Under the pieces are notes generated by a model. The model saw nothing but the letters and a program-made list of their open reading frames with translations. It was not told the DNA's origin and did no database searches. From positions 1 through 26,523 of the IMG/VR virus record IMGVR_UViG_3300049567_000022: 26,523 nt of DNA. The stretch is one strand, 5' to 3'. This stretch comes from a virus. The translations under genes were made by a program, and so were the position numbers. This document shows, piece by piece, positions 3,851-21,291 of the stretch. Every line of letters begins with the position of its first letter. Positions within the stretch are counted from its first letter, which is position 1.

Positions 3851-4942
3851 ATGGACACCAAGGGCCTCCGCGTCGAGATCAAGGATGAGGCGAAGGGACT
3901 GGTCAAAGCGGTCTTCTCGACCTTCGATGTGGTCGACAGCCACGGCGATGTGACCCTTCCCGGGGCATTCGAGGACGGCGCCGAGGTGCCGATCAGCTCC
4001 TACGGCCACACCTCCTGGGAGGGAGCCCTGCCGGTCGGTAAGGGCACGATCCGGCAGACACGCAAGGAAGCCATCTTCGAGGGCCAGTTCTTCCTGGACA
4101 CCGTCGCCGGCCGGGACACCTTCACAGTGGTGAAGGGGCTCGGTGCCCTCGGCCAGTGGTCCTACGGGTACGACGTGACCCGCGAGTCGTTCGGTGACCA
4201 CGACGGGCAGAAGGTGCGCTTCCTGGAGGGGCTGCGCGTCCACGAGGTCAGCCCGGTGCTGATCGGCGCCGGGGTCAACACCCGCACCCTCAGCGCCAAG
4301 TCCTCGACCACGGCCCTCCCGCCCCGGGTGGGCCGGGTGATCGCACCGCACGAGGTCGAGGTGACCTCCATGTCGTGGGACGGCGCCAAGACGGTGGCGG
4401 CCCTAGCTGAGGACGCCCGGCCGAGCGAGCTGCGCACCGTGTACGCCTGGGTGGACGCCGCCGGCGACCCCGAGGCCAAGTCGAGCTACCGGTTCCCGCA
4501 CCACCACGGCGTGGGCGGCCCGGCCAACACCCGGGCGTGCCTGATGGGCATCGCCCGCCTGAACGACCCCGCCAAGGCCGGCATTCCGGATGCCGACCGG
4601 GCGGCGGTCTACGAGCACCTCGCGGGACACCTGCGGGATGCCGACATCGAGGCGCCCGAGCTGAAGGCTCAGCCCGGCGGCTCACTGAAGTACGCCGAAG
4701 AGGGGCACGCGGTCCTAGCCGCGGTGTCGGCCTTCGTCGATCGCACTGCGGAAGTCGTGGCTCTCCGCGCACTCAAGGGCAAGGGCATGGCGCCCCGCTC
4801 GGCCGACCTCCTCGGATGGATCGGCGACGACCTGCAGCGCCTGAAGTCCCTGCTCTCCACACCCCTGGACCCGCAGGAGCCGACCGACGCCGAGATCGCC
4901 TCGGTGATCGCGCGGTCCGTGGCCCAGCTGAATGGACTGTGA
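3851..4942 (+). CDS. HK97-family prohead protease with C-terminal extension
   Basis: 363 residues; ATG directly follows the portal stop, with AAAGGAG just upstream. The N-terminal ~150 residues are a HK97 gp4-like serine protease that trims the capsid scaffold domain during maturation. H53 (SYGHTSWEG) and S104 (WSYGYDV) are the likely catalytic pair, with E132 in the VHEVSPVLIG motif. A second block follows at about 193-272 (SSYRFPHHH, GPANTRACLMGIARLND, IPDADRAAVYEHLAGHL). This is a small helical module often fused to phage proteases and capsid proteins. The C-terminal helical tail may act as scaffold. No separate scaffold gene is visible, consistent with a HK97-type delta domain in the capsid protein. 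Confidence 0.9.
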   Translation: MDTKGLRVEIKDEAKGLVKAVFSTFDVVDSHGDVTLPGAFEDGAEVPISSYGHTSWEGALPVGKGTIRQTRKEAIFEGQFFLDTVAGRDTFTVVKGLGALGQWSYGYDVTRESFGDHDGQKVRFLEGLRVHEVSPVLIGAGVNTRTLSAKSSTTALPPRVGRVIAPHEVEVTSMSWDGAKTVAALAEDARPSELRTVYAWVDAAGDPEAKSSYRFPHHHGVGGPANTRACLMGIARLNDPAKAGIPDADRAAVYEHLAGHLRDADIEAPELKAQPGGSLKYAEEGHAVLAAVSAFVDRTAEVVALRALKGKGMAPRSADLLGWIGDDLQRLKSLLSTPLDPQEPTDAEIASVIARSVAQLNGL

Positions 4943-4950
4943 GGAGACCA

Positions 4951-6219
4951 ATGACCATCGAAGCTCCCGACCGGATCGTCGAGTTCCCCGCGCTGACCGA
5001 GGCGCAGGGCAAGCTCGACGCCAAGCGCAAGAGCCTGAAGGACATCTTCGACGAGGCCGGCCCCGACTACGACATGAGCAAGGTGAAGTCCATCCAGGGC
5101 GACACCTCGGCGAAGGTCGCGTACATCGGGTCGCTGAACGCCGAGATCGAAGAGCAGAAGAAGAAGGTCGACGAGCTGCTCGTGGTGGCGCGCGCGGCTA
5201 GCGCGGCCAAGGCGTCGCGGCAGACCGAGTCTGGCGACAAGGACGTGCCCGGCGAGGACGACCGCTCGCGCACCAAGGATGGGCGGCAGCGTTCGTTCGG
5301 CGAGATGTTCATGGCCAGCCAGGCGGTCAAGGGCTACAGCCGCGGGTCTGGTCAGGGCCCGCAGGCGCAGATCCAGATGGCGCTCAAGACGCTGCTGACC
5401 ACCGGCGGGTGGGCGCCGGAGACCATCCGCACCGGCCGCATCGAGGAGCTGCCGACCCGCCCGGCCCCGGCGGTCGCCGACATGATCCCGCAGACGACCA
5501 CCACCCAGGCCGCCGTGGTCTACATGGTGGAGACCATCTTCAATAACACCGCGCAGGAGGTCTTCGAGGGCGACCAGTACCCCGAGGCGCAGCTCAAGCT
5601 GGACGAGACCAACGTCCCGGTCCGTAAGATCGCCGTGTTCCTGCCGGTGACCGACGAGACGTTCGAGGACGTCCCGCGCGCCGAGGCCTACGTGCAGAAC
5701 CGCCTGCCGTTCATGATCCGGCAGCGTCTGGACCTGCAGATCCTGCGCGGCAACGGCACCGCGCCGAACCTGCTGGGCACCGAGAACGTGCCGGGCATCA
5801 TCTCCCAGCCCAAGGGGTCCGACCCGGTCCCCGACGCCCTGTACAAGGGGCTGCGGCGCATCCGCACCGAGGGTTTCGCCGAGCCGAACGTCATCTTCAT
5901 GACGCCGACCACCTGGGAGCCGGTCCGGCTGCTGCGCACCGCGGACGGCGTCTACATCTGGGGCCACCCGTCCATGCCGGGCCCGGCGACCATCTGGGGT
6001 GTCCCGGTCAAAGAGACCACGGCCGCGCCGCCGACCAAGGCGCTGATGGGCGACTACGCGAACTTCTCGGAGCTGGCGGTCCGCCGCGGCATCGACGTGC
6101 AGGTCAGCAACTCCCACGCCGACTACTTCATCCGCGGGCAGCTCGCGATCCGCGCGGATGTGCGGTGCGCGGTCGTCCACTACCGCCCTTCGGCGTTCGC
6201 CGAGGTCACGGGCCTCTAG
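4951..6219 (+). CDS. major capsid protein (HK97 fold)
   Basis: 422 residues from ATG 4951, with GAGGAG at 4941-4946. Residues 1-110 are charged and helical (EIEEQKKKVDELLVVARAAS around 65-84). They resemble the delta/scaffold domain that the protease removes. The mature fold follows: FGEMFMASQAVKGY, the segment VPVRKIAVFLPVTDETFEDV (about 222-241), and the family hallmark LRGNGTAPNLLGTENVPGI (265-283), then MTPTTWEPVRLLR and FIRGQLAIRADVRCAVVHYRPSAF (split here by no gap) at the C-terminus. Length and position after the protease fit. I cannot tell by eye whether the crosslinking Lys/Asn pair of HK97 is present. Confidence 0.93.
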   Translation: MTIEAPDRIVEFPALTEAQGKLDAKRKSLKDIFDEAGPDYDMSKVKSIQGDTSAKVAYIGSLNAEIEEQKKKVDELLVVARAASAAKASRQTESGDKDVPGEDDRSRTKDGRQRSFGEMFMASQAVKGYSRGSGQGPQAQIQMALKTLLTTGGWAPETIRTGRIEELPTRPAPAVADMIPQTTTTQAAVVYMVETIFNNTAQEVFEGDQYPEAQLKLDETNVPVRKIAVFLPVTDETFEDVPRAEAYVQNRLPFMIRQRLDLQILRGNGTAPNLLGTENVPGIISQPKGSDPVPDALYKGLRRIRTEGFAEPNVIFMTPTTWEPVRLLRTADGVYIWGHPSMPGPATIWGVPVKETTAAPPTKALMGDYANFSELAVRRGIDVQVSNSHADYFIRGQLAIRADVRCAVVHYRPSAFAEVTGL

Positions 6220-6978: not shown

Positions 6979-7259
6979 GCGGCGCCGTGAAGATGACCAA
7001 GCGGCTGTATCTGACCGCGGATGGGTCCCGCGTGGTCGAGGACGGAGACCCGGAGGCCGCGACGCTGCTGTGCCCGGCGGGCGGGTTCCTGTCGCACGCC
7101 GACGCGGCCCGGTACGGCCTGCTGCCGGACGCCGCGGCCGCCGAGGCCGCGGCCGAGCGCGAGCCGGACACCGAGGCGGACGAGGAGTCGAAGCAGGAGA
7201 AGAAGGCCCCGGCGGCGGCGAACAAGGCCGCGAAGAGGCCCGCCGACAAGGGGGCCTGA
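6975..7259 (+). CDS. small head-region protein with Ala/Lys tail
   Basis: 94 residues. The N-terminal half (KMTKRLYLTADGSRVVEDGD, then ATLLCPAGGFLSHADAARYGL) is a small folded unit; many actinophages encode a similar short protein after the capsid gene. The C-terminal 40 residues are low-complexity, first acidic (EREPDTEADEE) then Lys/Ala-rich, so probably disordered. Coupled at both ends: ATGA at 6975 and TGATG at 7257-7261. A second small ORF of the same general type, 79 residues at 13896, precedes the tail gene. Confidence 0.65.
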   Translation: MSGAVKMTKRLYLTADGSRVVEDGDPEAATLLCPAGGFLSHADAARYGLLPDAAAAEAAAEREPDTEADEESKQEKKAPAAANKAAKRPADKGA

Positions 7260-7909
7260 TGGCTGTCACGCAGTTCGTCTACGGCAAGCTGCAGCTCAGC
7301 CTGTTCCAGGGTCTGATCAACTTCAGCTCGGACACCATCAAGGCGATGCTCCTGTCGGCGTACACGGTCGGCAGCACGCTGGACACCGCCCAGTTCCTCT
7401 CCGATGTGCTGGCGGCGGCCACCGAGACCACCGGCAGCGGGTACACCGCCGGCGGGGCGACGCTGGGCAGCAAGACCGTCGCCTACACCGCGGCGAACTC
7501 GTGGGGCACCAGCCGGGCCAACTCGACGGCGTACGCGCTCGGGGACGTGGTCCGCCCCGCCTCGGGCAACGGGTACGTCTACCAGGCGATCGTGGCCGGC
7601 ACCTCGGCCGGGTCGCTGCCCACCTACCCCACGGTGATCGGGCAGACCGTCACAGACGGCGGCGTGACGTGGGCGAACGTGGGCCGGGGCGTGCTGCTGA
7701 TCGACGCGGCCGACCCGTCGTGGACGACGTCCAACCCCGGGACGCTGGCCGGCGCCTACATCGTGTTCTACAAGGACACCGGCACCGGGTCGACGTCCCC
7801 GGTGATCCTGTACTGGGATCTGGGCGGCACTCAGACCGCGTCCAACGGCGGGGCGTTCACCCCGCAGCTCGACGCCACCGAGGGCCTGCTCACCCTGTTC
7901 ACCGGCTGA
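7259..7909 (+). CDS. virion protein with inserted carbohydrate-binding-like module
   Basis: 216 residues. The flanks match a known small phage structural family: DTIKAMLLSAY near 25-35, TGSGYTAGGATLGSKTVAY at 58-76, then VLLIDAADPSWTTS, IVFYKDTGTGSTSPVILYWD and a C-terminus ending LLTLFTG. In the family as I know it the strand after TVAY runs directly into the DADDPSW strand. Here about 62 residues (82-143) intervene, with the signature YALGDVVRP, GYVYQAIVAGTSA, PTYP, TVTDGGVTWANVG. Aromatic-rich modules like this occur in phage fibers and resemble carbohydrate-binding domains. The insertion is probably surface-exposed. Coupled to the upstream ORF by TGATG. Confidence 0.72.
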   Translation: MAVTQFVYGKLQLSLFQGLINFSSDTIKAMLLSAYTVGSTLDTAQFLSDVLAAATETTGSGYTAGGATLGSKTVAYTAANSWGTSRANSTAYALGDVVRPASGNGYVYQAIVAGTSAGSLPTYPTVIGQTVTDGGVTWANVGRGVLLIDAADPSWTTSNPGTLAGAYIVFYKDTGTGSTSPVILYWDLGGTQTASNGGAFTPQLDATEGLLTLFTG

Positions 7910-7915
7910 GCCGCG

Positions 7916-8920
7916 GTGTCGCGTCTGGCGGTCACCCGGTGGGCCCGCCCCGGCGGGCTGGTCGCGGCCGTGGCGTTGCCGGGCGCCGCCGGGGCGGTCC
8001 GGTTGCGCGCCGGCCAGGGGGCGCTGGGCGGGTTCCCCGACGCGTCCAACACCGGGTACACCGCCTGGCCGGGGTATGCCGGGTCGCTGACCACGTACGC
8101 CGGCGCCGACCCGATCCCCTCCTCGGCGTCCGGCACCCTCTACGCCGGGTACCGGTTCTCCGGCGGGGTGACGGTCGGCACCTCCGGGTCCGCCCCCACC
8201 GGGGTGACGTTCCGGGGGTGCGAGTTCGCCATCACCTCGCCGAACGACTGGAACGTGCAGGACTACGGCATCGGGACAACGTTCGAGTACTGCACCTTCA
8301 GGCCCTCGGCGGTGTCGGTGCCGCCGGTCACCTTGGCGCAGTCCTACCAGTACGGGATCAACCACGTCGGCCTGTCGCTCACCGTCCGCCGGTGCAACTT
8401 CTGGGGGTTCGGCAACGGCATCCAGCTGGGCGTCAGCACGGCGGCCAACCCCGTGCTCGTGGAGGACTCCTACTTCCACGACGCCGCCGACCAGGCCGGG
8501 TCGACCTACCACCATGACGGGATCTTGAGTAACAACGGCGGATCCCAGATGCAGTACGTCACGATCCGGCGCAACACCATCCTGTCGGGTGGCAACACCA
8601 ACGGGATCGCCCTGCAGTACGACGGCTCCTACTACTCCAACATCACCGTCACCGGCAACCAGCTCGGCGGGTTCGGCTACACCGTGAACATCGGCGGCGC
8701 CGCCACCGGCAATCAGAACGTGCTGTTCACCGACAACGTGCTCAACACCCTGATCGCGCCGGTGTTCGGCGAGCTGTACGGCTGGGCCGACGGCAACGGC
8801 AACACCTGGCGGCGCAACCGGTGGCTGGTGCCGGCCGGGGCCGCGTACGGCGCGACCGGGGACAACGGCAAGTACTGGTGGCCCGACGGCTCCCGCAACT
8901 CCTCCGATTACACGGGCTGA
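7916..8920 (+). CDS. right-handed beta-helix spike/fiber protein
   Basis: 334 residues from GTG 7916, 6 bases after the previous stop and without a clear ribosome site. Residues 1-40 carry a single copy (LPGAAGAVRLRAGQGAL, 21-37) of the repeat that builds the 408-residue protein downstream. FPDASNTGYT at 40-49 opens a pectate-lyase-like beta-helix domain seen in actinophage fibers and secreted actinobacterial proteins. Successive coils are visible: GVTFRGCEFAIT, GTTFEYCTFRP, LTVRRCNFWGFGNGIQLG, VLVEDSYFHDA, YVTIRRNTILSGG, ITVTGNQLGGFG, NVLFTDNVLNT. Likely role: glycan binding or cleavage on the virion surface. No catalytic residues can be assigned by eye. Confidence 0.8.
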   Translation: MSRLAVTRWARPGGLVAAVALPGAAGAVRLRAGQGALGGFPDASNTGYTAWPGYAGSLTTYAGADPIPSSASGTLYAGYRFSGGVTVGTSGSAPTGVTFRGCEFAITSPNDWNVQDYGIGTTFEYCTFRPSAVSVPPVTLAQSYQYGINHVGLSLTVRRCNFWGFGNGIQLGVSTAANPVLVEDSYFHDAADQAGSTYHHDGILSNNGGSQMQYVTIRRNTILSGGNTNGIALQYDGSYYSNITVTGNQLGGFGYTVNIGGAATGNQNVLFTDNVLNTLIAPVFGELYGWADGNGNTWRRNRWLVPAGAAYGATGDNGKYWWPDGSRNSSDYTG

Positions 8921-9209: not shown

Positions 9210-9929
9210 GTGCCCGCCGGTGTCGTCCAGGTCAACAGCGGTGCCAACAACGCGCCCGGGTCCGGCACCCAGACCGCGTCGCTCAGCGGCGCGGCGACGG
9301 CCAACAACCAGATCGTGCTCGTTGTCGGCGCCGACGACTACGCCGCCAGCCCACCGTCGGGATTCACCCAGCACACCGGGTGCGCCCAGCAGACGTTCCT
9401 GGGCCACTACCTGTGGCGCAAAACCGCGACCGGCGGGGAAACCTCGATCTCTTACACGATCGGGTCGGCCTCTCCGTCGTGCTGGATCGTCATGGAGTGC
9501 AGCGGCCTGGATTCCGCCTCCCCCTACGACACTTCCAACGGGCAGTTCGCCCAGTCCTCGGCCACCAACTACGACACCCCGACCATCACACCGACCTCGG
9601 GTGACCGGCTGCTGGTGGCCACCATCGGCGGATCCCTGAACTCGGCGTTCGGCACGGGCATGGGGGCGTGGACCAACAGCTTCGCCGAGCAGGGCGACGT
9701 GTGGACGACGCTCGGGTCCGGCACCCGCGACTCGATCGGCCTGGCCATCCTCGCGGTGACCGCCAACGGCTCCACCGGCTACACCACGAACGCCACCTGG
9801 GACGGCGGGATGAGCCCCCAGTCCCGCACCGGCGTGATCATGGCGCTGAAGGTCGCCGGAGCCGCGTCCGCCGCGTCCTCCCCGCCGCGCACCATAAACC
9901 GTTTCCGCCGCCATCTGCTCGTGAGGTGA
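9210..9929 (+). CDS. beta-sandwich virion/lectin-like protein
   Basis: 239 residues from GTG 9210, with AAGGGGGG at 9197-9204. The sequence reads as one large beta-sandwich: TANNQIVLVVGADDY, FLGHYLWRKTATGGETSISY, CWIVMECSGLD, SGDRLLVATIGGS, WTNSFAEQGDVW, SIGLAILAVTANGSTGYT, TGVIMALKVAG. This pattern occurs in phage fiber and lectin-like proteins. It ends in a basic tail (PPRTINRFRRHLLVR) that may anchor it. No catalytic motif is seen. With the beta-helix and repeat proteins around it, a surface or receptor-binding role is the best inference. Confidence 0.65.
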   Translation: MPAGVVQVNSGANNAPGSGTQTASLSGAATANNQIVLVVGADDYAASPPSGFTQHTGCAQQTFLGHYLWRKTATGGETSISYTIGSASPSCWIVMECSGLDSASPYDTSNGQFAQSSATNYDTPTITPTSGDRLLVATIGGSLNSAFGTGMGAWTNSFAEQGDVWTTLGSGTRDSIGLAILAVTANGSTGYTTNATWDGGMSPQSRTGVIMALKVAGAASAASSPPRTINRFRRHLLVR

Positions 9930-10416: not shown

Positions 10417-11643
10417 GTGGCGCGGCGGACCTACCCTTCCCGGCGGTCCGGGCGCGCGGTCTACCGGACGCCGGACGCCTTCTGGCGGCCGCGGCGCCGG
10501 CGCCTGCTGGCCACCGCCGCAGCGGCCACCCCCACCAGCGTCACGCTGCCCGGCGGCGCCGGGACGATACGCCTGTCCGGGTCGGCCGGGTCGGTCGCGG
10601 TCACCGAGATCCTGCCCGCGGGCGGTGAGGCTGCGGTCCGCCTGCGGGCAGGGTCCGGCGCGGTCCTGGCCGTCCAGGTGGCCCCGCTTCCCGGCCCGTC
10701 CGGGAGCGTCCGCTCACGCCCGGGCCAGGGCTCGGTCACCGCCTCCCAGCGGGCCCCGGTCACCGGCGGGTCCGGCACCGTCCGAGTCCGCGGCGCGGCA
10801 GGAGCGGTCACCGCCGTCCAAGTCGCGCCGCTGCCCGCCCCTGCTGGCCGAGTCCTCGTGCGGGCCGCCTCCGGTGCGGTCACCGCTGTGCAGGTGGTCA
10901 CCACGCCCGGCGCGGCCGGCGCGGTGCGCCTCCGGGCGGGGTCGGGCACGGTCACCTCGGCGGTGACCGTGACGCTCACCGCCGCCGCGAGCACCGTCCG
11001 CGCGCGGGCCGGGCAGGGCCAGGCGCTCGCGGTTCAGAACGTCTCGGCTGCCGGTGCGGCCGGCCGGGTCGTGGTGCGGGCCGGGGCCGGAACGGTATCG
11101 ACGGTGTCGGGCGGCACCTCGGTCACCGCGACCGGCCCGGTCGGCACCATCCAGGTCCGCGCGGGCGCCGGGACGGTGCTGGCGGTCCAGCAACAACCGC
11201 TGCAGGGCACGGCAAGTTCGCTGCGTGTACGCGCCTCCAGCGGGGCTGTGACAGCCATACGGGTCGCGGCCGTAACCGGTGCGGGCGGAGTCGTCCGCGT
11301 CCGCGCTGGGGCCGCCACGGTGCTCGCCGTGGCGCACGTCGCGCTGGCCGGTGGGCCGGGCGCGGTGCGGGTGCGCGCAGGCGGCGGGGTGCTGCTGCTC
11401 GGCGGGACCAGTGTCGTCATCACCGGCCGCCCGGGCGCCATCCGGACGCGCGCGGCGTCCGGGACCGTGGCCGCCGTGCAGGTCGTGCTGCTGTCCGGCG
11501 CGGCCGGCACGGTCCGAGTGCGCGGCGGCGGTCGGGCGCCCCTGCCACCGCAGTCCAGCCGGGGCGCGATGGGCGTCCGAATCCGGCCGGTCGCGACGAT
11601 TTCGAGCAGGCCACGCGCCGGCGCTCAGATGAGGAGTGGCTGA
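10417..11643 (+). CDS. Arg-rich 24-residue-repeat virion protein
   Basis: 408 residues from GTG 10417, 4 bases after the previous stop; its stop overlaps the connector start (TGATG). Residues 1-30 are highly basic (WRPRRRRLL). From residue 44 to about 375 there are fourteen repeats of about 24 residues with consensus LPGxAGxVRVRAGxGxVxAVQVAP. Each repeat looks like two beta strands joined by Gly turns, with Arg alternating with Val. I count about 47 Arg, no Lys, no Cys, one Asp and two Glu, so it must be extremely basic. No known family is recognised. A beta-solenoid or fibrous capsid appendage binding acidic polymer (teichoic acid, capsule or DNA) is possible. Codon use matches neighbours, so it is a real gene. 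Confidence 0.75.
   Translation: MARRTYPSRRSGRAVYRTPDAFWRPRRRRLLATAAAATPTSVTLPGGAGTIRLSGSAGSVAVTEILPAGGEAAVRLRAGSGAVLAVQVAPLPGPSGSVRSRPGQGSVTASQRAPVTGGSGTVRVRGAAGAVTAVQVAPLPAPAGRVLVRAASGAVTAVQVVTTPGAAGAVRLRAGSGTVTSAVTVTLTAAASTVRARAGQGQALAVQNVSAAGAAGRVVVRAGAGTVSTVSGGTSVTATGPVGTIQVRAGAGTVLAVQQQPLQGTASSLRVRASSGAVTAIRVAAVTGAGGVVRVRAGAATVLAVAHVALAGGPGAVRVRAGGGVLLLGGTSVVITGRPGAIRTRAASGTVAAVQVVLLSGAAGTVRVRGGGRAPLPPQSSRGAMGVRIRPVATISSRPRAGAQMRSG
10546..11541 (+). repeat. fourteen 72-bp in-frame tandem repeats
   Basis: Coding repeats within the Arg-rich protein. Units begin near residues 44, 66, 91, 115, 139, 163, 187, 211, 238, 262, 286, 310, 335 and 359, so the period is 24 residues (72 bases) with few deviations. 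The protein motif is conserved but the DNA has diverged, so the array is old or held by selection rather than freshly expanded. Confidence 0.8.
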
Positions 11644-12467
11644 TGTCGGTCGACCTGGGCGACCTGGCCCCGCTGTCCATCCAGATCCTCAACGCCGCCG
11701 GGCAGCCGGAGGACGCGACCTCGGTCAGCGTCACCATCACGCTGCCGGACGGCACCACCGAAACCCACGGCCCTATCCCATCGGCCTCCCCTGGGGCCTA
11801 CGACTACGACTACATGACCGTGCAGGCGGGACGGCACCACGCCCGATGGGTGGCCACCGGGCTCAACGCCTCGGCTTACACCGACAGCTTCGACGTGGCC
11901 CCGGCCGACGACGGGGACTTCATCAGTCTGACCGACGCGATCGAGCACCTGAAGAAGAAGAGTCTCACGCCAGACGCTGAGAAGCTGCGGGTGTTCATCA
12001 GCGCCGCCTGCCAGATGATCACCGACCGGATGGGGCAGGTGTCACCAGCGACCGTGGTGCACGACGCCGCCGCCCGGCGCGCGGTCGTACTGCCCCGGCG
12101 GCCGGTCATCTCCATCACCACCGTCCAGCGGCTACCCGGCCTCGACCCCGTCCCGGCGGCCGATGAGCCCGCCGGGGTGACCGGGTGGGTGCTGGACTCC
12201 CGCGAGGGGGTGCTGAGCGGGTGCTGTGGGCGGGTGCGGGTCACCTACCGGGCGGGGCGGTCGCCGCTTCCTGCGAACTTCCGGCTGGCCGCACTGGAGT
12301 TGGTGGCGCACCTGTGGCGCACGTCGCAGCTGAACGCCGGAGGAGGCCGCCCGGGGGTCGGTGTCGACGAGGTGGTCGTACCCGGGGTGTCCTACGCGCT
12401 GCCGTACAACGTCCGCCAGCTGCTCGGCCTCGACAAGCGGCCGCAGGCCGAGATCGTCGTGGGGTGA
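11643..12467 (+). CDS. head-tail connector (gp6-like) with N-terminal Ig-like domain
   Basis: 274 residues. Residues 1-88 form an Ig-like beta domain (SIQILNAAGQPEDATSVSVT, then YDYDYMTVQAGRHHARWVAT). From about 92 the connector domain follows: FISLTDAIEHLKKK, AEKLRVFISAACQMITDRMG, VVLPRRPVISITTVQ, GCCGRVRVTYRAG, LAALELVAHLWRTSQ. This is typical of adaptor proteins that dock under the portal and link it to the tail. Fusion of an Ig-like domain to the adaptor is known in actinophages. Start coupled to the repeat-protein gene by TGATG. The adaptor normally lies close to the capsid gene; here 5.4 kb intervene. Confidence 0.82.
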   Translation: MSVDLGDLAPLSIQILNAAGQPEDATSVSVTITLPDGTTETHGPIPSASPGAYDYDYMTVQAGRHHARWVATGLNASAYTDSFDVAPADDGDFISLTDAIEHLKKKSLTPDAEKLRVFISAACQMITDRMGQVSPATVVHDAAARRAVVLPRRPVISITTVQRLPGLDPVPAADEPAGVTGWVLDSREGVLSGCCGRVRVTYRAGRSPLPANFRLAALELVAHLWRTSQLNAGGGRPGVGVDEVVVPGVSYALPYNVRQLLGLDKRPQAEIVVG

Positions 12468-19653: not shown

Positions 19654-19670
19654 CAAGGAGGGGGGCTTGG

Positions 19671-20213
19671 GTGGCCACCGTGCCCGCGCCGCGTACCTGG
19701 ACCTCATCAGAGCAGGTCACCGCCGCCAAGCTCAACACCGACATCCGCGACGCCTTCAACTTCTTCAAGGCCCCACCGATGGCGGTACTACGAAAGAGCG
19801 CCAACCAGACCATCGCCAACAACACCACCACCGCGGTGATCTGGGACGTGGAAGTCCTCGACCGCGACGGCGGGCACTCCAACACCACCAACAACACCCG
19901 GTACACCGCGCAGACCACCGGCTGGTACCACCTGCGCACCATCGTGTACTGGTCCAACGCCGGCTCCCAGGCCGCCTGGCATGACCTGTACTTCCGTAAG
20001 AACGGCTCCACGGCGCAGAACCGGTCGGTGTGGGTCAACCGCGGCTCGCTGTTCGACAGCCCGCACTCCACCGAGGGGTACATGCGACTGGTCGCCGGCG
20101 ACTACGTGGAGGTGATGACGATCCTGCTCAACAGCCCCGGCAGCATGGCCATGCAGGCCTACGTCGGCCTGCCGACCTACACCAGCCTGCACATCCGGTG
20201 GGTGGCCGCCTGA
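19671..20213 (+). CDS. tail tip/fiber protein, paralog 1
   Basis: 180 residues from GTG 19671, with AAGGAGGGGGG at 19655-19665. A short N-terminal segment (APRTWTSSEQVTAAKLNTDI, then RDAFNFFKAPPMAVLRKS) leads into a C1q/TNF-like beta-sandwich: DRDGGHSNTTNNTRYTAQTT, GWYHLRTIVYWSNAG, HDLYFRKNGSTAQNRSVWVN, MRLVAGDYVEVMTILLNSPG, SLHIRWVAA. Such trimeric jelly-roll domains commonly bind receptors at phage tail tips. It is clearly paralogous to the next two genes and coupled to the next by TGATG. A receptor-binding role is inferred. Confidence 0.75.
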   Translation: MATVPAPRTWTSSEQVTAAKLNTDIRDAFNFFKAPPMAVLRKSANQTIANNTTTAVIWDVEVLDRDGGHSNTTNNTRYTAQTTGWYHLRTIVYWSNAGSQAAWHDLYFRKNGSTAQNRSVWVNRGSLFDSPHSTEGYMRLVAGDYVEVMTILLNSPGSMAMQAYVGLPTYTSLHIRWVAA

Positions 20214-20746
20214 TGCCCATCCCCACCGCAGCCACCTGGAACGTCGGAGACAACCCGACCTCCACCATCCTCAACACCCGGATCCGCGACGCCATCACCG
20301 GGCTCACCACCTTGCCGATGGCGGTGCTCCGCAAGACCGCCACCCAGGCCATCGCCAGCAGTACCTACCTGGCGCTGACCTGGCCCACCGAAGATCTCGA
20401 CACCGACGGCGGGCACTCCACCGTCACCAACACCGAGCGGTACACCGCCCAGGTCACCGGCTGGTACCACCTCACCGCCACCGTCGTGTTCTCCGGCAAC
20501 GCCACCGGCCGCCGGGACGCGTTCTTCCGGATCAACGGGATCACCACCCGCAGGTACGGCTGGCACACCTCCACTCCCGGTCCGAACGCCGGCGGCGCCG
20601 ACATCTGCATCGTCCTGGCCACCCACGCCTACCTCACCGTCGGCGACTACGCCGAGGTGATCGCCTACCAGGACAGCGGCGGGTCGCTCAACCTGCTCGC
20701 CTCTAACCAGGACTCCCGCTTCGAGATCATGTGGGTGTCGTTGTGA
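20213..20746 (+). CDS. tail tip/fiber protein, paralog 2
   Basis: 177 residues. It follows paralog 1 without gaps over the core: PMAVLRKTATQAIASSTYLA, DLDTDGGHSTVTNTERYTAQ, VTGWYHLTATVVFSGN, FFRINGITTRRYGW, LTVGDYAEVIAYQDSGGSLN, FEIMWVSL. DNA identity with paralog 1 is high in several blocks at a constant 539-base offset, for example GACGGCGGGCACTCC at 19866 and 20405. This indicates a tandem duplication. The loops between strands differ most, as expected for receptor-binding surfaces. The stop overlaps the next start (GTGA). Confidence 0.75.
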   Translation: MPIPTAATWNVGDNPTSTILNTRIRDAITGLTTLPMAVLRKTATQAIASSTYLALTWPTEDLDTDGGHSTVTNTERYTAQVTGWYHLTATVVFSGNATGRRDAFFRINGITTRRYGWHTSTPGPNAGGADICIVLATHAYLTVGDYAEVIAYQDSGGSLNLLASNQDSRFEIMWVSL

Positions 20747-21291
20747 CCATCCCGATCCCGAAAACCTGGGCGGCCGGGCTGTGGTCGACCGCCGAGATGA
20801 ACGTGCACATGCGGGACCTGCTGTCGTGGTTCCTGCGTCCACCCATGTGCATCGTGCGCCGGGACAAAAGCGCCCAGACGCTACCCGACTTCGGGCTTGA
20901 CCCCATCCAGTGGGACAGCGTGGTCATCGACTCCGACGGCATCTTCGACACCGATGACCCGACCCGGCTGACCGCCGCCACCCCCGGCTACTACCTGATC
21001 ACGTTGCAAGTGCAGTGGCTGCAAGACTCCGTCAACACCGACACCCGGTTTCACCTGTTGTATGTGTTCAACGCCGCCGGGGTGCAGCAGGAAGTCGTGT
21101 TCCTGCACACCAACCAGTACCTGCAGAGCAGCGAGTCGTACACCAACACCACGACCGTCGCGCTGAACACCGGCGATTACGTGATCGCCAAGGCGCGCAT
21201 CTGGCTCAACACCACCCGGCTGGCCGGCCTGGATCCCGACAACGGCGCCTACGGCTGCCAGATCGACATGCGGTGGGTCTCCACCCTGTGA
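20743..21291 (+). CDS. tail tip/fiber protein, paralog 3 (diverged)
   Basis: 182 residues from GTG 20743 (GTGA overlap); GTG 20731 in the same frame is a less likely start. It keeps the layout of the two preceding proteins: TIPIPKTWAAGLWSTAEMNV, HMRDLLSWFLRPPMCIVRRD, then a beta-sandwich with TAATPGYYLITLQVQWLQDS, HLLYVFNAAGVQQEVVFLHT, VALNTGDYVIAKARIWLNTT, CQIDMRWVSTL. Divergence is much greater than between paralogs 1 and 2, so this copy is older. Last gene before a strong hairpin, so probably the end of the tail operon. Receptor-binding or tip role inferred. Confidence 0.72.
   Translation: MTIPIPKTWAAGLWSTAEMNVHMRDLLSWFLRPPMCIVRRDKSAQTLPDFGLDPIQWDSVVIDSDGIFDTDDPTRLTAATPGYYLITLQVQWLQDSVNTDTRFHLLYVFNAAGVQQEVVFLHTNQYLQSSESYTNTTTVALNTGDYVIAKARIWLNTTRLAGLDPDNGAYGCQIDMRWVSTL

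Follow-up and report, generated by a model that had tools for sequence, protein, structure and literature searches.

An arginine-ladder repeat protein in a phage structural module: a candidate adhesion fibre with an exchangeable repeat

Conserved termini around a repeat core that varies in number and sequence have been described for Tweety gp54, Che8 gp57 and PMC gp51 (PMC2884959), and the first of these appears, by analogy, to be the nearest published precedent found for the protein reported here. Tweety gp54 is absent from a relative and was presumed by its authors not to be essential, and the same authors note that tetrapeptide repeats of its type are common in unstructured proteins (PMC2884959). 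Our protein follows the same plan, a likeness of description, but its unit is 24 residues and not four; and whereas it is encoded within a structural operon, Tweety gene 54 lies outside that operon, beyond the integrase gene (PMC2884959). Genes of the slot type defined below also encode tandem repeats of similar unit length in structural regions of other phages. In EBPR siphovirus 2 (gp72, AEI71088.1) the repeats stand N-terminally in a long protein encoded close to a tail gene; the other cases are MW202742, Pseudanabaena phage Pam2 and Microcystis phage Mwe-JY26. The repeats of these four are unrelated to the Arg repeat described here and are linked to it only via the repeat proteins of other slots. 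MW202742 further resembles our locus in having both the neighbouring partner gene and an N-terminal anchor, the latter unannotated.

The window, which is the whole stretch of 26,523 nucleotides analysed (IMG/VR virus record IMGVR_UViG_3300049567_000022), contains an HK97-type structural module with terminase, portal, S78 protease and capsid genes, followed after the capsid by a head-tail adaptor and then a tape measure gene. Genes for beta-rich proteins are grouped between capsid and adaptor, running from the fibre-type protein to the repeat protein (Table 1). A sequence-only reading had placed the repeat protein in a structural operon, as this gene order bears out, and from the same order we infer that it is a virion protein. 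That reading had also described fourteen 24-residue repeats in a chain of 408 residues and, from a count by eye, about 47 Arg, three acidic residues and neither Lys nor Cys; the reading frame is present and open at 10417-11643, and the count agrees exactly (47 Arg, 0 Lys, 0 Cys, 2 Glu and 1 Asp). Autocorrelation against the shuffled sequence is strongest at lag 24 (z = 13.9) and at lag 48 (8.3), and the weaker signals at lag 12 (3.0) and lag 36 (2.8) are what a unit composed of two similar halves would give. An iterated repeat profile maps 14 units to residues 34-381, with one to three extra residues at two unit junctions and degenerate first and last units. Among 13 of these units, Arg occupies position 12 in every one (13/13) and position 10 in 10/13, and Gly predominates at positions 4, 7 and 16.

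Table 1. Positions of the repeat protein, its parts and its neighbours in the window
Feature	Positions	Strand	Remarks
HK97-type major capsid protein	4951..6219	+	79% identical in the virus of L035; no match in that of L018
Fibre-type cassette protein	7259..7909	+	Matches phrog_644 and, locally, phrog_20658 (head decoration); L067 has a homologue
Probable right-handed beta-helix	7916..8920	+	From sequence appearance; 70% identical in the virus of L018
Extra copy of the 24-aa repeat (LPGAAGAVRLRAGQGAL)	7973..8023	+	Near the N-terminus of the beta-helix protein; E 8e-4
Beta-rich protein	9210..9929	+	C-terminal end INRFRRHLLVR
Single jelly-roll partner, 158 aa	9936..10412	+	Motif TEVGDAQEE; conserved neighbour of the repeat protein; pLDDT 92.9
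Repeat protein	10417..11643	+	408 aa; GTG start; stop overlaps ATG of the head-tail adaptor gene
N-terminal Arg/aromatic anchor (MARRTYPSRRSGRAVYRTPDAFWRPRRRRLL)	10417..10509	+	Low confidence in the model; probably disordered
14 repeat units of ~24 residues	10516..11559	+	Arg at positions 10 and 12 of the unit; modelled as beta throughout
C-terminal tail (RGAMGVRIRP...)	11560..11643	+	Resembles the tail of the L035 slot protein
Head-tail adaptor	11643..12467	+	phrog_442; gene after the repeat protein

Direct searches of IMG/VR, a phage collection, Pfam, PHROGs and PDB sequences returned a single close relative, at locus L018 (G001, IMG/VR 3300043618_000010), which is 45% identical over 397 codons; beyond it these searches gave no match, and no PHROGs or Pfam profile matched the repeat protein at E values up to 1. 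The earlier impression that no characterised family is of this type therefore stands. Weak Pfam and PHROG matches of the L018 protein and of its counterpart at a second locus, L035, were treated as composition noise. Divergence between the window protein and that of L018 is 0.44, 0.34 and 0.59 at codon positions 1, 2 and 3, a pattern which fits a translated protein under selection, and which together with conservation at the protein level rules out a wrong reading frame or a GC artefact. The GTG start is supported because the N-termini of the L018 protein and of a third, at L048, align from residue 1. A recent tandem duplication at the DNA level was also rejected: Tandem Repeats Finder reports just a short array near the gene start, so the units are old.

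Conservation between the two viruses is concentrated on particular residues. The Arg and Gly of the core are conserved at 0.68, against 0.43 for all residues, Arg 12 is present in 27 of 28 units, and net charge is +44 in the window protein and +43 in its L018 counterpart. The Arg ladder is thus a real feature, apparently under selection, of a subgroup that comprises two viruses, L018 being the sole close relative found. The Arg-lined surface suggested by the sequence-only reading is supported within this subgroup but is not general, as the corresponding protein of L035 is acidic. The same values bear on whether the repeats might be a dispensable spacer that expands and drifts with little function, as presumed for Tweety gp54 (PMC2884959). 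The absence of gp54 from a relative, and the free variation of repeat type and number between the viruses compared below, would agree with such drift; yet Arg and Gly are conserved above the general level, codon position 3 has diverged more than positions 1 and 2, and the slot is kept across many phages, all of which make the spacer improbable.

Structure prediction for the whole chain gave a repeating beta-solenoid with disorder mainly at the ends, one of the two folds that the sequence-only reading had proposed. The model is beta throughout with low-confidence ends; its scores (mean pLDDT 59.7, a modest value, and pTM 0.67) come from a two-sequence alignment, and the predictor may push such repeats into solenoids. 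A Foldseek search with this model yielded no significant match (E above 2), and a second look at the few chains that it returned gave Z scores of about 23 to beta-solenoids. The best of these (Z 22.7-23.6) are adhesins and fibres, namely the HMW1 secretion domain (2odl), EtpA (8vbb), CsgA curli (8c50) and a Ca-dependent antifreeze protein (3p4g), to which no sequence relation was found, and the matches indicate a common arrangement and are not evidence of kinship. We consider a beta-solenoid the likely fold, on the strength of the prediction.

The model of the upstream partner is all beta and of high confidence (Table 1). Its nearest solved folds are jelly rolls (Z 7-9), including the tail fibre of Agrobacterium phage 7-7-1 (9rkv, Z 8.5), the turret of the archaeal virus HFTV1 (8qpg, Z 7.9) and plant virus coat proteins, at values within the range that the tool calls common for unrelated folds. 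Because plant virus coats score equally well, the predicted fold would indicate a virion surface type and no more; in the LIMEzero region, the gene behind a viral fold match of the partner was not found. Relatives of the partner number 33 in viral contigs and 4 in genomes, and the nearest in a named genome is from a Streptosporangiaceae MAG (77%), which suggests an actinobacterial host.

In these relatives the gene directly after the partner, here termed the slot, usually encodes a repeat protein. Strong periodicity (lags 15-30) is present in 22/28 slots and in 6/172 other ORFs of the same loci, where the 28 slots were picked by eye and are not all mutually independent, and where the control count is if anything too high, because it takes in overlapping-frame ORFs of repeat genes (L005, L051), a repeat protein from the cassette of L018 and two tape measure proteins. 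An anchor motif lies within the first 25 residues in 19/28 slots and in 2/172 control ORFs. The best lags are mostly 20-24. The repeats themselves are often unrelated between viruses: within a set of 30 proteins just 17 pairs score at E 1e-3 or better, and in several cases (for example window and L048, L019 and L051) they do so through common anchors and not through repeats. Net charge across the slot proteins runs from clearly negative to strongly positive. The window has every mark of the slot, with a TEVGDAQEE partner upstream, a period of 24 and an Arg/aromatic anchor. Since the repeats share so little sequence, profile searches miss the slot, and its proteins stay annotated as hypothetical. 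In the slot protein at L023 (6469-7356), the usual anchor is followed not by repeats but by a globular domain, lectin-like (LamG/ConA) as judged by eye.

The anchor of the window protein is strongly basic, with Lys and Arg making up 28% of the first 40 residues and 10% of the rest. It belongs to a subgroup form, MARR(T/A)(Y/F)PSRR, that differs from the commoner VFRR form, and it is 78% identical to that of L048 over the first 23 residues, although the repeats of L048 differ. In L048 this near-identical anchor, with a few repeats, stands ahead of a minor tail protein (phrog_1885, E 6e-24), in a gene downstream of the tape measure and Dit-like genes. Likewise, in a prophage of Thermomonospora echinospora DSM 43163 (L049, whose genes are those of IMG locus L013) an anchor leads into a conserved phage protein (phrog_5313), and in L026 an Arg-rich start comes before a protein whose tail match is weak (E 0.001). 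The fusion in L048 weighs against one reading of the window, namely that partner and repeat protein form a turret and whisker on the head or neck, a capsid decoration that serves stability or loose surface attachment and not specific host binding. The position of the window gene between capsid and head-tail adaptor would suit such a decoration, as would the location of a related repeat protein in Mwe-JY26, whose gene lies between those annotated as major capsid and as tail tube, the local match of the neighbour at 7259-7909 to a head decoration family, and the resemblance of the partner to the HFTV1 turret, among others, albeit at a Z score common for unrelated folds. With an anchor-repeat part joined to a tail protein in L048, we think a capsid decoration unlikely, while granting it more weight than the spacer.

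Two natural comparisons separate the repeat from the capsid. The nearest capsid protein to that of the window is encoded in the virus of L035 (G002, from IMG/VR), yet the slot before the head-tail adaptor of that virus is occupied by a protein of 409 residues whose repeats are acidic (net charge -27, against +44 in the window), the gene ahead of it is not the jelly-roll partner, and the beta-helix is absent. Conversely, the virus of L018 has the beta-helix, the partner and the Arg repeat protein, and the window capsid protein finds no match in it. As L035 has the capsid with a different repeat, and L018 the reverse, the repeat type would on these two comparisons travel with the cassette and not with the capsid. 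The beta-helix protein, which has no Pfam or PHROG match, holds an extra copy of the 24-residue repeat in the window, and so does its ortholog in the virus of L018 (E 1e-3). The C-terminal tail of the window protein resembles that of the otherwise unrelated L035 protein (1 of 2000 shuffles reaches the score), and because it resembles L035 and not L018, recombination inside the repeat protein gene is suggested.

Positive charge among the slot counterparts is not conserved, and is kept only within the two-virus subgroup. With an acidic protein in the L035 slot and both signs of charge among relatives, this kind of protein cannot be defined by a function that needs positive charge, DNA binding for example. 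An internal basic protein, packaged with the genome to condense and neutralise it, might be read from the Arg-only composition (net +44 with no Lys in the window protein, and +43 in L018), but the opposite charge in the virus with the nearest capsid, and the joining of the L048 anchor to a tail protein, render it very improbable. By eye, the acidic repeats of L035 look RTX-like (GxGxDxLx, lag 18), and an SGNH hydrolase-like conserved protein is encoded upstream of the slot there (4087-5814) and near the partner in L033. The contig of L018 also encodes, at L067 (3189-4391), a further repeat protein, this one acidic in its repeats (LADTVTAVDDLTVVA), so that one genome carries both charge types.

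We therefore incline, at a little better than even, to the reading that the repeat protein is a docked adhesion fibre within a mobile adhesin cassette, with the Arg ladder specific to its subgroup. The solenoid is predicted by the model; docking, surface display and ligand we infer. The repeat protein would be the rod of the fibre: its N-terminus of about 31 residues, rich in Arg and aromatics and probably disordered alone, would dock on the particle, with the jelly-roll partner encoded just upstream as a possible site, and the 14 repeats would stack into one beta-solenoid at about one turn per unit, giving a rod of roughly 6-7 nm if there are 13-14 turns of about 0.48 nm. Ladders of Arg 10 and Arg 12 along one face may then contact an acidic polymer on the host surface, a form of binding that the ladder suits, though one that would not be general to slot proteins. 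The cassette of fibre, beta-helix, partner and repeat protein would move between phages with unrelated capsids, the repeat type being replaced or rewritten while anchor and partner are kept.

This fibre reading draws support from the excess of repeats and anchors next to the partner over the control ORFs, from anchors held in common where repeats differ (window and L048, L019 and L051), from the contrast between L018 and L035 in repeat and capsid, and from the extra repeat copy in both beta-helix proteins. The anchor fusions of L048 and L049, the repeats near tail genes in EBPR siphovirus 2, the solenoid model and the retention of the Arg ladder also favour it. Against it count the modest confidence of a model built on a two-sequence alignment, the lack of significance in Foldseek, the location of the window gene between capsid and head-tail adaptor and not in the tail-tip region, a subgroup anchor unlike the commoner VFRR type, and the finding of only one close relative. 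More broadly, and more tentatively, the slot may represent an undescribed modular surface fibre of tailed phages, in which a constant docking peptide and jelly-roll base carry a beta-solenoid rod with a repeat swapped outright between viruses, allowing the sign of the surface charge to flip without a change in attachment; we rate this below an even prospect. If a constant anchor does carry an exchangeable rod, then a change in surface chemistry or adhesion without a change in particle attachment becomes testable, and nature supplies two comparisons, one within a capsid lineage with opposite charge, the other across different capsids with the same repeat.

Further observations concern neighbouring genes and public annotation. 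The window protein at 9210-9929 and an otherwise different cassette protein at L067 (4692-5282, ending in ANARRRLLVR) have C-terminal tails that look alike by eye (FRRHLLVR and RRRLLVR), and these basic tails are possibly a docking signal. At 19667-21291 the window encodes three consecutive paralogues of about 150-190 residues with a common TAxTxGWYHL-type motif; their appearance recalls C1q/TNF-like tail-tip proteins. Finally, in MW202742 (L044, 5009-5147), where the partner is present, the annotated start of the repeat protein at 5147 looks too late, as homology and an open frame reach back to about 5009 and add an anchor (TGVFRHRYHAPYYQQRRWVPS); read from this unannotated upstream start, the product is an anchored protein of 22-residue repeats, and one start codon in the public record is apparently misplaced, hiding the anchor.
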